Shown piece after piece: positions 4,521 through 42,449 of a DNA stretch of 64,000 nucleotides. The translations under genes were made by a program, and so were the position numbers. Numbering within the stretch: position 1 is the first letter of the stretch; each line of letters starts with the position of its first letter. A model generated the notes under the pieces. The model ran no database searches and had not been told where the DNA came from. It saw nothing but the letters and a program-made list of their open reading frames with translations. This stretch comes from an uncultured Candidatus Saccharibacteria bacterium (lineage in GTDB: Bacteria; Patescibacteriota; Saccharimonadia; Saccharimonadales; UBA4665): NCBI GenBank assembly GCA_903840315.1, contig CAIMFK010000012.1:80186-144185 (forward strand). Reading direction: 5' to 3'.

Positions 4521-7049
4521 TTAAATGCGGCTTGAGCTTATTTCTTTTTCGAGGGTCGATGCGACTCCATCTAATAATTCATTGACCGATTCAGTGGTTA
4601 AAGTTCGATCGTATGCACTAATTGTAAGCCTAAAGGTAATTTGCTTATTATCTAAGTCGTCTTCTTTTTGAAATATATCTACAAGCCTTAAGTCAAAAGA
4701 GGTTTTATCCGGTTTAGAAGCCTCAATTTTATCCCATATAAGATTAAAGAGATTATCATAGGTAATTTTAGCATCAACTTTTAAGCAAATATCCTGATGA
4801 ATTTTAGGAAACTTAGGTAATGGTAGGTATGTTGTTTCTGAATTAACATTATCTAGAGCTGAAAGCTTTAGTTCAAAACCAGCAGTAAAATCTGGAAGCT
4901 TCAATGAAGTTTTTACGCTATTCTTAAACTCACCTACTACTCCTACGGGTTCTTTTCCTATAACTAGTAAGGCGCTTCTTTTGTCCTCATATGGTTCTAC
5001 TAATTGCTTAAACCAAATGTCATCTTTTAAATAATCCTTGGAATTATTGAGTGGCAGAAACTGTAGTGGAAGACCCAGTTTTTCAAGTAAATAAGATAAG
5101 TACTCTTTAGCCTGGTAATAGGCAGCGCCCTCAAAATGCCTCTTGGCCGTCTTGGAATCTGCTGCGAATACTAGGCCTAGGGTTATGTTCTCTAATGGTA
5201 GATTATCCTCATCCTTATCTTGATTGTTGTGACTTTTTCCAATCTCAAAAAGTGCAAAAGATTTATTGTCAGAATCAGAATAGTCAGATCTTAGATTGGG
5301 ATATATTAACTCTAGTATACTTGGGGTAATACTGAGACGATAATATTGCAAATCAGGACTAATTGCATTATTTATTTCAATAGCTAAACTTGAATCTTGA
5401 TGAGATTTTTTAAGCAAATCTCCATGAACGAAACTATGGCACAAAACTTCATTAGCTCCTGCAGCTGAAAGTAAGTCTCTAATTCTTGAAGCTGTTTGTA
5501 GCTGTTCACCAACCATAGCTGGTTTGATTTGCCTATAAGGTAGATCTTGAGGAAGCTTAAAGTATCCGTTCAATCTTCCTACTTCTTCTACGATATCTTC
5601 TTTAATTTCAATATCGGTTCTCCAGAACGATTCTCCAATACTAAAGTTGTCATTTTCTTTTTCAACAATCAACTCGACATTACCGAGCAGTCTCTGGATT
5701 TCTTCAGACGTTAATTTCATGCCAAGTCTAGAATTAATGAAGTCAGTTGAAATAGAAACTCTTGATATTTTCTGGGCAGTATAATTATTGTCTATTATTT
5801 CTGAGGCCAGTTGTCCGCCGCTAAGCTCCCGAATCATCTCTAAAGTCTTTAGGGCTACTGCTAAATTCTGTCTTTTGCTTTGGCCCTTAGTGAACCTAGT
5901 TACGGCATCAGTAAATAAACCATAGTCCATTGATGTTCTGCGAATTGTATACATGTTAAAATTGGCACATTCAAGAATAATATTTCTAGTATTTTCATCT
6001 ACTTCAGTTGTTGCTCCACCCATAACTCCAGCCAATCCTATCGCTTCGTCATCTATGGCAATAACTATGTCACTTTCTTTAAGTGCTATTTCTTTACCAC
6101 TTAAAAGAGTTAGTTTTTCATCATTAATACCTCTTCTGACTATAATTTCTGCACGACCATCATTTTTCGAGGTGACCTTGTCATAATCATAGGCATGCAA
6201 TGGCTGACCAGTTAGAGTCATCATATAGTTGGTTATGTCGACAATGTTATTTATTGGCCTTATGCCGATTCTACTTAACATCGATTGCATAAATAATGGG
6301 CTGGGTTTAATCTCAACACCAGAAACTGAATAAGCAACGAATCGTGGAGCCAATTCAGGAGCCTGATTATTAACTTCAAGAGCTAGAGTTCCGTTGCCGA
6401 TTGGGCTTTCAATATTTTCTTTATACCACTTGGGGGAAACGAATTGTATATCTTGGATTCCGCTAATTTCACGTGCTATACCTAAAATACCAAAGCAGTC
6501 TGGTCGGTGTGTAAACATTTTATTCTCTAAATCAATTACATAGTCATCTAATTTATATGCATCAATTAGAGTTGTGCCTGGCTTAATATCTGTATCTATT
6601 TCTAAAAGCCCTTCGTGTGAGTCTCCAAATGCTAATTCTTTAGGGCTAGCGAGCATACCATTACTTACAATTCCTCTAAGCTCTCTGGCCTCTAAAACAA
6701 TCTTATCTTTATTGAAAGTAGATGGCACTGTAGCCTTTGGAGGAATCCAAACAGCCAGCATTCCCGCTCTAACATTTGGAGCGCCACACACTACCTGGAT
6801 TAAGCCTTGGTCATCTCTTTGAACATCCTTAATATATCCACCGTCATCAACCCTACAAACGTTGAGTTTGTCAGCTTGCTGGTGTTTAATGCATTCTTTA
6901 ACCTCAACGATAACTATGCCTTTGTATTTATCGCCAATATATTCATACTCCTCAACGGCACCTAATTGTGTACCGATTTTAGAAATTAATTCATCGATAG
7001 ATAAATCAACATCAGTAAATTCCTTAATCCAATTCAAGCTTATCTTCAT
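4521..7049 (-). CDS. pheT: Phenylalanine--tRNA ligase beta subunit
   Basis: This 842-residue beta subunit works with PheS to charge tRNA-Phe. An N-terminal EMAP/OB-type tRNA-binding domain spans about 40-150 (KGIVIVEVKECIKH). The B3/B4 editing region lies about 215-390, then B5, the class II-like catalytic-fold region (about 480-690), and a C-terminal ferredoxin-fold anticodon-binding domain of about 95 residues (LPKFPKIHQDICLKV). Full length for a bacterial PheT. Its ATG overlaps the pheS stop by one base (TAATG). Confidence 0.95.
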   Translation of the reverse strand: MKISLNWIKEFTDVDLSIDELISKIGTQLGAVEEYEYIGDKYKGIVIVEVKECIKHQQADKLNVCRVDDGGYIKDVQRDDQGLIQVVCGAPNVRAGMLAVWIPPKATVPSTFNKDKIVLEARELRGIVSNGMLASPKELAFGDSHEGLLEIDTDIKPGTTLIDAYKLDDYVIDLENKMFTHRPDCFGILGIAREISGIQDIQFVSPKWYKENIESPIGNGTLALEVNNQAPELAPRFVAYSVSGVEIKPSPLFMQSMLSRIGIRPINNIVDITNYMMTLTGQPLHAYDYDKVTSKNDGRAEIIVRRGINDEKLTLLSGKEIALKESDIVIAIDDEAIGLAGVMGGATTEVDENTRNIILECANFNMYTIRRTSMDYGLFTDAVTRFTKGQSKRQNLAVALKTLEMIRELSGGQLASEIIDNNYTAQKISRVSISTDFINSRLGMKLTSEEIQRLLGNVELIVEKENDNFSIGESFWRTDIEIKEDIVEEVGRLNGYFKLPQDLPYRQIKPAMVGEQLQTASRIRDLLSAAGANEVLCHSFVHGDLLKKSHQDSSLAIEINNAISPDLQYYRLSITPSILELIYPNLRSDYSDSDNKSFALFEIGKSHNNQDKDEDNLPLENITLGLVFAADSKTAKRHFEGAAYYQAKEYLSYLLEKLGLPLQFLPLNNSKDYLKDDIWFKQLVEPYEDKRSALLVIGKEPVGVVGEFKNSVKTSLKLPDFTAGFELKLSALDNVNSETTYLPLPKFPKIHQDICLKVDAKITYDNLFNLIWDKIEASKPDKTSFDLRLVDIFQKEDDLDNKQITFRLTISAYDRTLTTESVNELLDGVASTLEKEISSSRI

Positions 7050-12064: not shown

Positions 12065-12138
12065 TGGGAATTGGCCAAGCGGTAAGGCACTGGGTTCTGG
12101 TCCCAGGATCGGGGGTTCGAATCCCTCATTCCCAGCCA
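12065..12138 (+). tRNA. tRNA-Gln (anticodon CTG)
   Basis: A full 74-nt cloverleaf is encoded, including CCA. The acceptor stem is TGGGAAT / ATTCCCA (7 bp), with discriminator G. The anticodon stem CTGGG/CCCAG closes the loop TTCTGGT, so the anticodon is CTG, reading CAG. The T arm is GGGGG-TTCGAAT-CCCTC. Its 3' end is repeated at 12758 and 13516, and the following terminator is repeated with the third copy. Confidence 0.93.
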
Positions 12139-40911: not shown

Positions 40912-42111
40912 ATGTCTTATTATCAATCAAATCAAAATAATCGATTCAGTAATAGAAATCGAAACAACAACTACGGCTCAAGAAAAAAACGAAGCTTTGG
41001 GCAATATATAGATCCAAGTAAGTTCATAAGAGTTGCAAAACCAGTTAAAAACGAAGAGTATGTACCTGAAAATAATTTTTCAGACTTTGAAGTTAACGTT
41101 CTAATTTCAAATAACCTTCAAAAAATGGGATATGTAAGCCCTTCTCCAATTCAAGATAAAACTATTCCAGTAGCTTTGACTGGCAAGGATGTAGTTGGAA
41201 TAGCCAACACGGGAACCGGGAAAACCGCTGCCTTCTTAATACCAGTTATTAACAAACTAATGAATGACCGTTCATCTAGAGCGTTAATACTTGCACCGAC
41301 TCGTGAGCTTGCAGAACAAATCGAAGAACAAACCCGAGATATCGCCAAAGGAAGTGGCTTACTGGGTGCACTCCTTATAGGTGGTGTTTCAATGCAGCCT
41401 CAACTTCGAGATTTACGTTCTAATCCACAAATTATTATCGGAACACCTGGAAGAGTTAAGGATCACATCGAAAGAAGAACTTTGAAGATTAATGATACTA
41501 ACGTTGTCGTTCTAGATGAGGTAGATCGAATGCTGGACATGGGGTTCATAGATGACATTACCGAAATTCTAAACCAAACATCTAGCGATAGGCAGTCATT
41601 CTTCTTTTCAGCCACTATGGAAGGTAAAGTTAAAACTCACATAGATAACTTTTCCAACAATCCAGTTAATATTATGGTTAAAACTGGTGACACAAGTGAA
41701 AATGTTCACCAGAATGTTGTTCACTACATCACAAAAGATGAAAAGCTAGAAAAATTACACGACATACTAACAAGCGAAGATACTGCCAAAACTCTAATTT
41801 TTGACGATACACATAGGAATGTTGAAAAATTAAATGACGAGTTAATAAACCGTGGCTTCAAATCTGATGCTATTCACGGCGGTAAATCTCAAGCTCAAAG
41901 ACAAAGAGCATTAAAAAAGTTTAAAGACTCGCATGTTAAAGTTCTTGTTGCTACAGATGTTGCAGCACGAGGAATCGATGTGTCTGACATTACGCACGTA
42001 GTGAACTTTTCTGTACCTCAATCATATGATGACTACGTACATAGAATTGGACGTGCAGGACGAGCCGGTAGGGTTGGACACGCTCTTACCTTTATCGAAA
42101 AAAGGTACTAA
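40912..42111 (+). CDS. DEAD-box RNA helicase
   Basis: A 399-residue helicase with an Asn/Arg-rich N-terminal tail (about 1-30), a Q motif before PSPIQDKTIP, Walker A ANTGTGKTAAF, motif Ia PTRELAEQ, motif II DEVD in place of DEAD (VVLDEVDRMLDMGF), motif III SAT, and the C-terminal motifs VATDVAARGID and HRIGRAGRAGR. It would unwind RNA in ribosome assembly or mRNA turnover. No C-terminal extension. The structured leader suggests control by its own activity or by temperature. Confidence 0.94.
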   Translation: MSYYQSNQNNRFSNRNRNNNYGSRKKRSFGQYIDPSKFIRVAKPVKNEEYVPENNFSDFEVNVLISNNLQKMGYVSPSPIQDKTIPVALTGKDVVGIANTGTGKTAAFLIPVINKLMNDRSSRALILAPTRELAEQIEEQTRDIAKGSGLLGALLIGGVSMQPQLRDLRSNPQIIIGTPGRVKDHIERRTLKINDTNVVVLDEVDRMLDMGFIDDITEILNQTSSDRQSFFFSATMEGKVKTHIDNFSNNPVNIMVKTGDTSENVHQNVVHYITKDEKLEKLHDILTSEDTAKTLIFDDTHRNVEKLNDELINRGFKSDAIHGGKSQAQRQRALKKFKDSHVKVLVATDVAARGIDVSDITHVVNFSVPQSYDDYVHRIGRAGRAGRVGHALTFIEKRY

Positions 42112-42121
42112 GCTTACTGGC

Positions 42122-42150
42122 TTGACGCTTAGTTTGAGTTAGTTTAATAT
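42122..42150 (+). promoter_or_regulatory. Promoter of the attenuator unit
   Basis: TTGACG (42122..42127), 17-bp spacer, TAATAT (42145..42150). The ATG of a 20-codon reading frame lies 7 nt after the -10 box, the same spacing as many leaderless genes in this window. Confidence 0.7.
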
Positions 42151-42157
42151 AACAGAC

Positions 42158-42220
42158 ATGGTTTCTATGAATCTCAAGTCAGTGATTATTGTCTATCCTA
42201 CTTGTGTTAGAGCCTGTTAA
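42158..42220 (+). CDS. Putative leader peptide (20 codons)
   Basis: The frame encodes MVSMNLKSVIIVYPTCVRAC and a TAA. It has no ribosome binding site, but the predicted transcript start is at its ATG. Its last codons (Arg-Ala-Cys-stop) lie on region 1 of the attenuator (42210..42217), so ribosome position there would decide which hairpin forms. I see no run of a single amino acid, so the signal may be a stalling peptide or general translation rate. Confidence 0.5.
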   Translation: MVSMNLKSVIIVYPTCVRAC

Positions 42221-42274
42221 AAAATCTTAAATAGCAAACAAAAAGACAGGCTCAATCAAGAGCCTGTCTTTTTT
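42210..42274 (+). terminator. Attenuator: mutually exclusive hairpins with intrinsic terminator
   Basis: Region 2 (AAAGACAGGCTC, 42242..42253) pairs perfectly over 12 bp with region 3 (GAGCCTGTCTTT, 42260..42271), followed by a T run: a strong terminator. Region 1 (GAGCCTGT, 42210..42217) has the same sequence as the core of region 3 and so can pair with region 2 instead, forming an antiterminator. Directly after the T run comes AAGAGGAGA and the ATG of a 53-residue protein. Confidence 0.7.
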
Positions 42275-42287
42275 AAGAGGAGAAGTT

Positions 42288-42449
42288 ATGAGTCAAGAAA
42301 TATTTAATGAGAGTGATTCCCAATCATTTTTAGACAGGAATGCGACAACTGAGGATATTCAACGTAGATTAATGCTTATGTCTATGGATTGGGACAGTCT
42401 AACCGATGATGAAAAATTAGAAGCCTTTCCTGGACTAGGCTACAACTAG
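42288..42449 (+). CDS. Small acidic protein of unknown function
   Basis: A 53-residue protein: MSQEIFNESDSQSFLDRNAT at the start, a helix with IQRRLMLMSMDWDSLTDDEK, and the end LEAFPGLGYN. It has an excellent ribosome binding site (AAGAGGAGA, 42275..42283), placed immediately after a terminator, which argues that it is real and regulated by attenuation. No family recognised. It lacks the C-terminal Gly-Gly-Glu/Gln of Pup. Confidence 0.6.
   Translation: MSQEIFNESDSQSFLDRNATTEDIQRRLMLMSMDWDSLTDDEKLEAFPGLGYN

Follow-up and report, generated by a model that had tools for sequence, protein, structure and literature searches.

A probable leaderless ribosome-dependent attenuator ahead of an orphan small-protein gene in Saccharibacteria

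Known attenuators and the Saccharibacterial locus

Transcription attenuators of the trp/ilv type combine a short leader ORF with mutually exclusive antiterminator and terminator hairpins and with a region 1 that is masked by the translating ribosome, and in Sinorhizobium meliloti trpL the attenuator RNA starts directly at the leader ATG, making the leader itself leaderless (PMC7298713). In the B. subtilis vmlR leader, which follows an anti-antiterminator/antiterminator/terminator logic, a uORF is located inside the first hairpin and hold-up of the ribosome leads to readthrough (PMC9226507), while in S. meliloti a uORF attenuator relieved by tetracycline controls a small DUF1127 gene (PMC12218461). 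Neither an attenuator leader that is itself leaderless nor uORF attenuation of a small-protein gene is therefore without precedent (PMC7298713, PMC12218461). Little is known of gene regulation in Patescibacteria; according to a 2024 perspective, how their growth states are controlled is not known at all, and a key part is expected of translation control (PMC11665869). In the literature searched, we found no report of transcription attenuation or of leader peptides in Patescibacteria or CPR.

Here we analyzed a 64,000-nucleotide stretch of DNA (the window) from an ultrasmall Saccharibacterium of the Patescibacteria/CPR, whose genome (G000) comprises 751,496 bases in 15 contigs. It was compared with two other genomes of the same genus (G001 and G002, both uncultured Candidatus Saccharibacteria), 90 further genomes of the family, 391 genomes of the class, genome contigs and viral contigs. 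Every element named in the first-pass annotation was found in the window sequence at 42122–42449, and the proposal that this locus has the full logic of an attenuator is supported by the elements present, the way they are arranged, their retention in three species and their competing in silico foldings. Judged from sequence comparison and folding, the unit is probably a transcription attenuator in which ribosomes on a leaderless leader peptide control a small-protein gene.

The closest known systems include the trp/ilv attenuators, and trpL in particular, with which the locus shares the short leader ORF, the exclusive hairpins and the masking of region 1. Unlike them, it precedes an orphan 53-residue product rather than an enzyme, lacks a long run of a single codon, resides in a Saccharibacterial host and has a region 1 that directly repeats the terminator's 3' arm. 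With vmlR it has in common the three-element logic, the uORF within the first hairpin and readthrough upon ribosome hold-up, whereas the vmlR uORF has only three codons and a Shine-Dalgarno sequence, is accompanied by a pause hairpin and precedes a resistance ATPase. The DUF1127 system likewise involves translation-dependent attenuation before a small-protein gene, but is presumed to be Rho-dependent, whereas the window unit has a canonical intrinsic terminator. What would be new here is attenuation in Patescibacteria, the orphan product and the recurrence of the design before threonine-dehydratase-like genes. The unit may offer a concrete, testable amino-acid or ribosome sensor in these epibionts, with an orphan small protein as its output.

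Promoter, leader peptide and target gene

The putative promoter (42122–42150, forward strand) consists of a -35 box, TTGACG (42122–42127), and a -10 box, TAATAT (42145–42150), separated by a spacer of 17 nt. Both boxes are indeed present and kept in the relatives as TTGACS-N17-TAATAT (TTGACC in G001 and G002, with the ATG 6 nt after the -10 box), but the earlier description of the promoter as near-consensus was overstated, as it scores 9/12 and matches this good are no rarer than in shuffled sequence. The argument for a promoter therefore rests on comparison, and its conservation in two relatives is better evidence than its match to the consensus. The leader ATG is located at 42158, 7 nt after the -10 box, and the RNA start is inferred to lie at or next to it, so that the leader is probably leaderless. 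Genome-wide, -10 boxes are strongly enriched 6, 7 and 8 nt before the ATG (65, 45 and 31 of 727 long ORFs, vs. mostly 4–20 at other distances) and a Shine-Dalgarno-like motif precedes only 200 of these 727 ORFs; leaderless starts are therefore normal in this Saccharibacterium. Inspection by eye revealed no plausible -35/-10 pair for a second promoter inside the hairpin. Since all potential promoters lie before the terminator and the ribosome binding site directly after it, expression of the downstream gene needs readthrough.

The leader ORF (42158–42220, forward strand) encodes MVSMNLKSVIIVYPTCVRAC in 20 codons and ends with TAA at 42218–42220, in agreement with the earlier notion of a 20-codon frame whose last codons and stop cover region 1. 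The corresponding peptides of the two relatives, G001 and G002, are MVKIYKSVVIIALPCIRAC and MVLNTYKTVMIIRLTCVRAC. Conservation of this frame, on which the first-pass annotation had staked its reading, was found in all three species: the leaderless ATG and the frame are kept, the length stays at 19–20 codons and the leaders differ by a single codon-sized (3-nt) indel. The C[VI]RAC-stop end and a V[IVM][IV][IV] block are retained while the codons between them vary, and the block stays at a constant distance from region 1. In the window the block corresponds to codons 9–12 (Val-Ile-Ile-Val, 42182–42193), which we propose as the sensing, or stall, site based on the geometry considered below. The enrichment of the leader in Ile and Val is weak (P from 0.01 to 0.15 per species). 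Cys accounts for 0.6% of codons genome-wide, yet two Cys residues are invariant at the leader end. The linker that follows the stop codon (AAAAAAT..TTAAATA, 42221–42232 in the window) is also kept in all three species and has no obvious pairing role.

As described previously, a strong ribosome binding site, AAGAGGAG (42275–42282), and a small acidic protein follow at once, the 53-codon ORF (42288–42449, forward strand) encoding 12 D/E vs. 4 K/R residues. Orthologues with a third-position excess of substitutions and a conserved C-terminus (SMDWDxLxDxEKxxAxPGLGYN) occur only in G001 and G002; no further homologues were detected in the 90 further family genomes, the 391 class genomes, other genome contigs or viral contigs. 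The protein had no match in Pfam, NCBIfam, PHROGs or PDB, and its AlphaFold model, composed of helices only, was weak (mean pLDDT 70, pTM 0.40) and gave no confident fold.

In both congeners the full unit is present in the same order: promoter, leaderless leader, regions 1–3, ribosome binding site and protein. The leader is followed there by AGAGCCTGCTAAAAAAT, a terminator with a long T-run, the ribosome binding site ATAGGAGG and the small gene. The core AGAGCCTGYTAAAAAAT is invariant in the three species, and elsewhere in the family genomes it was found only as two one-mismatch matches (L012 and L013); both lie inside unrelated coding sequence and were rejected as wider occurrences of the leader core. 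The comparative alignment called for earlier thus showed that the leader peptide and regions 1–3 are kept, but no strong covariation emerged, since the three species belong to one genus and the core is nearly invariant. The gene upstream of the unit in G001 and G002 is divergent and is not the helicase gene, so that the unit is found independently of the latter. Downstream, G001 has glycosyltransferase and deacetylase genes as in the window, whereas the next gene in G002 is convergent; the common target is therefore the small gene alone. In G002 (L005, 1–1492), glycosyltransferase-like and polysaccharide-deacetylase-like parts are joined in the one ORF convergent to the small gene, while in the window and G001 similar genes are separate and lie downstream of it.

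Competing hairpins, proposed switch and alternative explanations

Region 1 (GAGCCTGTT, 42210–42218), which lies over the last leader codons and the stop, would serve as the 5' strand of the antiterminator; region 2 (AAAAAGACAGGCTC, 42240–42253) is the shared strand, as indicated by sequence, conservation and folding; and region 3 (GAGCCTGTC; GAGCCTGTCTTTTTT with the T6 run included, 42260–42274) forms the 3' arm of the intrinsic terminator. The terminator hairpin had been presented as a perfect 12-bp stem of regions 2 and 3, and perfect it is, but the stem, AAAAAGACAGGCTC-AATCAA-GAGCCTGTCTTTTT followed by T6, extends over 14 bp. It is kept in the relatives, with the arms CAGGCTC/GAGCCTG in G001 and AGGCTCA/TGAGCCT in G002, where the core comprises only 7 bp before a mismatch. 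Intrinsic terminators are a real feature of this genome, in which 33 sites with a hairpin and T-run were counted vs. 2 in the reversed genome.

The earlier assertion that region 1 can pair with region 2 was confirmed by in silico folding and by comparison with dinucleotide-shuffled leaders, only 0.6, 0.2 and 0.25% of which matched the pairing in the window, G001 and G002, respectively. RNA truncated before region 3 folds with regions 1 and 2 paired (local pairing of -13.4, -10.4 and -8.6 kcal/mol in the same order), whereas the complete RNA folds with regions 2 and 3 paired (-19.6, -15.5 and -10.9 kcal/mol). In each of the three species, antiterminator and terminator exclude each other in silico by competing for a common strand, the other antiterminator strand lies under the leader ribosome, and a short leader ORF with a conserved frame occupies the space between promoter and terminator. 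Because the 2:3 stem is always the more stable at equilibrium, the switch must be kinetic. Kinetic switching is usual for attenuators. A further pairing, of the first leader codons (region 0, GGTTTCTA, 42160–42167) with region 1, was significant against shuffles in G002 (0.6%), marginal in G001 (5.7%) and not significant in the window (18%). In G002 the first codons (GGTTCTA) pair with region 1 and leave the 1:2 pairing at about half occupancy only. Tentatively, this leader hairpin may be a weaker fourth element: it would act as an anti-antiterminator and be opened when a ribosome occupies the first codons.

From this arrangement we infer that transcription terminates or reads through at the hairpin and that the signal lies in Val/Ile. 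The transcript would begin with the leader ATG or right beside it, and its 5' end would be bound directly by a ribosome. Upon reaching the stop codon it would cover region 1 but not region 2, allowing the 2:3 terminator to form just before the ribosome binding site (OFF state). If, on the other hand, the ribosome were held at codon 12 or so, or earlier, region 1 would be free to pair with region 2 while region 3 was still untranscribed; no terminator could then form and readthrough would yield the 53-residue protein (ON state). Without a loaded ribosome, region 1 may be sequestered by the first codons and the terminator may form again, a route that is clear in one relative only. The limit for sensing follows from the toeprint distance, according to which a ribosome with its P site on a given codon reaches about 16 nt downstream (PMC9226507): region 1 starts at leader nucleotide 53 and so is free only with the P site no further along than about codon 12. 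The Val/Ile block at codons 9–12 fits this limit, while both Cys codons are too late. The block would be the likeliest site of hold-up, the cause being either a lack of charged Ile or Val tRNA or an inhibitor whose action depends on the peptide context there.

The same geometry bears on the nature of the signal. That the trigger is not Ile/Val supply but, as in vmlR, an antibiotic that targets the ribosome or translation stress in general is a real possibility, if somewhat short of an even chance: any hold-up before codon 13 or so frees region 1, the vmlR leader works by the same logic and the DUF1127 attenuator responds to tetracycline, and the leader is only weakly enriched in Ile and Val, although the product matched no resistance-like entry in Pfam, NCBIfam, PHROGs or PDB and the V[IVM][IV][IV] block has a counterpart in the Ile runs of the threonine-dehydratase-type leaders described below. 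A cysteine- or thiol-responsive attenuator with the invariant C[VI]RAC end as its sensor, an idea drawing on the rarity of Cys codons in the genome, we regard as very unlikely. With the ribosome paused at codon 16 or 20, region 1 would lie beneath the ribosome itself and termination would be favoured, and Cys20 follows from the base sequence of region 1, while the leader hairpin has Cys16 within its 3' arm; on this geometry, Cys was rejected as the signal.

A 5' UTR that binds a ligand or protein (a riboswitch, a T-box or autoregulation by the small protein) through the same hairpins, with the leader ORF incidental, seems unlikely. Riboswitches do use 1:2/2:3 alternatives and the post-stop linker is conserved for no clear reason, yet the leader retains its start, frame and stop and sits precisely over region 1, and a comparison of the window with Rfam at gathering score gave no match at the locus, its matches being a tRNA gene (12065–12135) and an adjoining SAM riboswitch (RF00162; 11873–11983, reverse strand) elsewhere in the window. 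That the hairpin serves only the DEAD-box helicase gene, as its bidirectional terminator, and that the likeness of region 1 to region 3 is fortuitous, is very unlikely. It is true that no other terminator lies between the end of the helicase gene, at 42111, and the leader, and that the hairpin carries a T-run on the opposite strand too. In both relatives, however, a divergent gene other than the helicase stands upstream and nevertheless the promoter, leader, hairpin and small gene remain; the small gene starts 13 nt after the T-run, too close to fit its own promoter in between; and the pairing of region 1 is significant in all three species. By the first-pass annotation, finding the hairpin in relatives only as the helicase terminator, without the small gene, would have counted against the attenuator; instead, the small gene follows the hairpin in 3/3 species and the helicase is absent upstream in G001 and G002, a synteny by which the plain helicase terminator was rejected.

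Similar units ahead of threonine-dehydratase-like genes

The whole 751,496-base genome was scanned for a terminator below -10 kcal/mol, a -35 box with 5/6 matches at a spacing of 17, a leaderless short ORF, pairing of regions 1 and 2 and a gene right behind. Two units passed, one being the window element and the other located on contig C14, vs. none in the reversed-genome control; an earlier scan without the pairing criterion gave 2 vs. 2 in the reversed control and hence is not used as evidence. The second unit (C14, about 6740–6890; L045/L059), with the leader MANYRIIEGMIIIPAAG, region 1 CTGGGTAGT and the terminator GACTCCCGG..AGGAGTC followed by T8, carries an isoleucine run in its leader and precedes a 340-aa threonine-dehydratase-like gene, a name that is approximate as the matches fall below curated cut-offs.

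Homologues of this gene in G007 (L070, reverse strand; leader MLVMNSHLIPAIIIPRSLRRTI) and in G084 and G100 (L072 and L073; leader MSNSIIMSEMIMTPRRGCL) are preceded by units of the same design, each with a terminator and with the final leader codons containing region 1. These three genomes belong to two genera other than the source genus. Like the window unit, the Ile-leader units (L045/L059, L070, L072 and L073) have a leaderless leader, region 1 in its last codons or stop, an intrinsic terminator 20–60 nt after the leader and a gene directly behind; they differ in their Ile-rich leader and enzyme product and show no sequence homology with the window element. Their pairing is weaker against shuffles (0.02–0.05). 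Cumulatively, that leaderless leaders rich in Ile, together with terminators, recur at this gene across three genera provides good evidence, at the level of sequence, that Saccharibacteria use leaderless ribosome-dependent attenuation. More speculatively, such attenuators may form a class across Saccharibacteria that acts as a cheap ribosome or amino-acid sensor, driving in the present case a genus-specific microprotein which adjusts translation or the growth state of the epibiont once amino acids from the host are exhausted; in this full form we consider the idea rather doubtful. As a separate observation, the enrichment of -10 boxes shortly before the ATG points to widespread leaderless mRNAs across the source genome.
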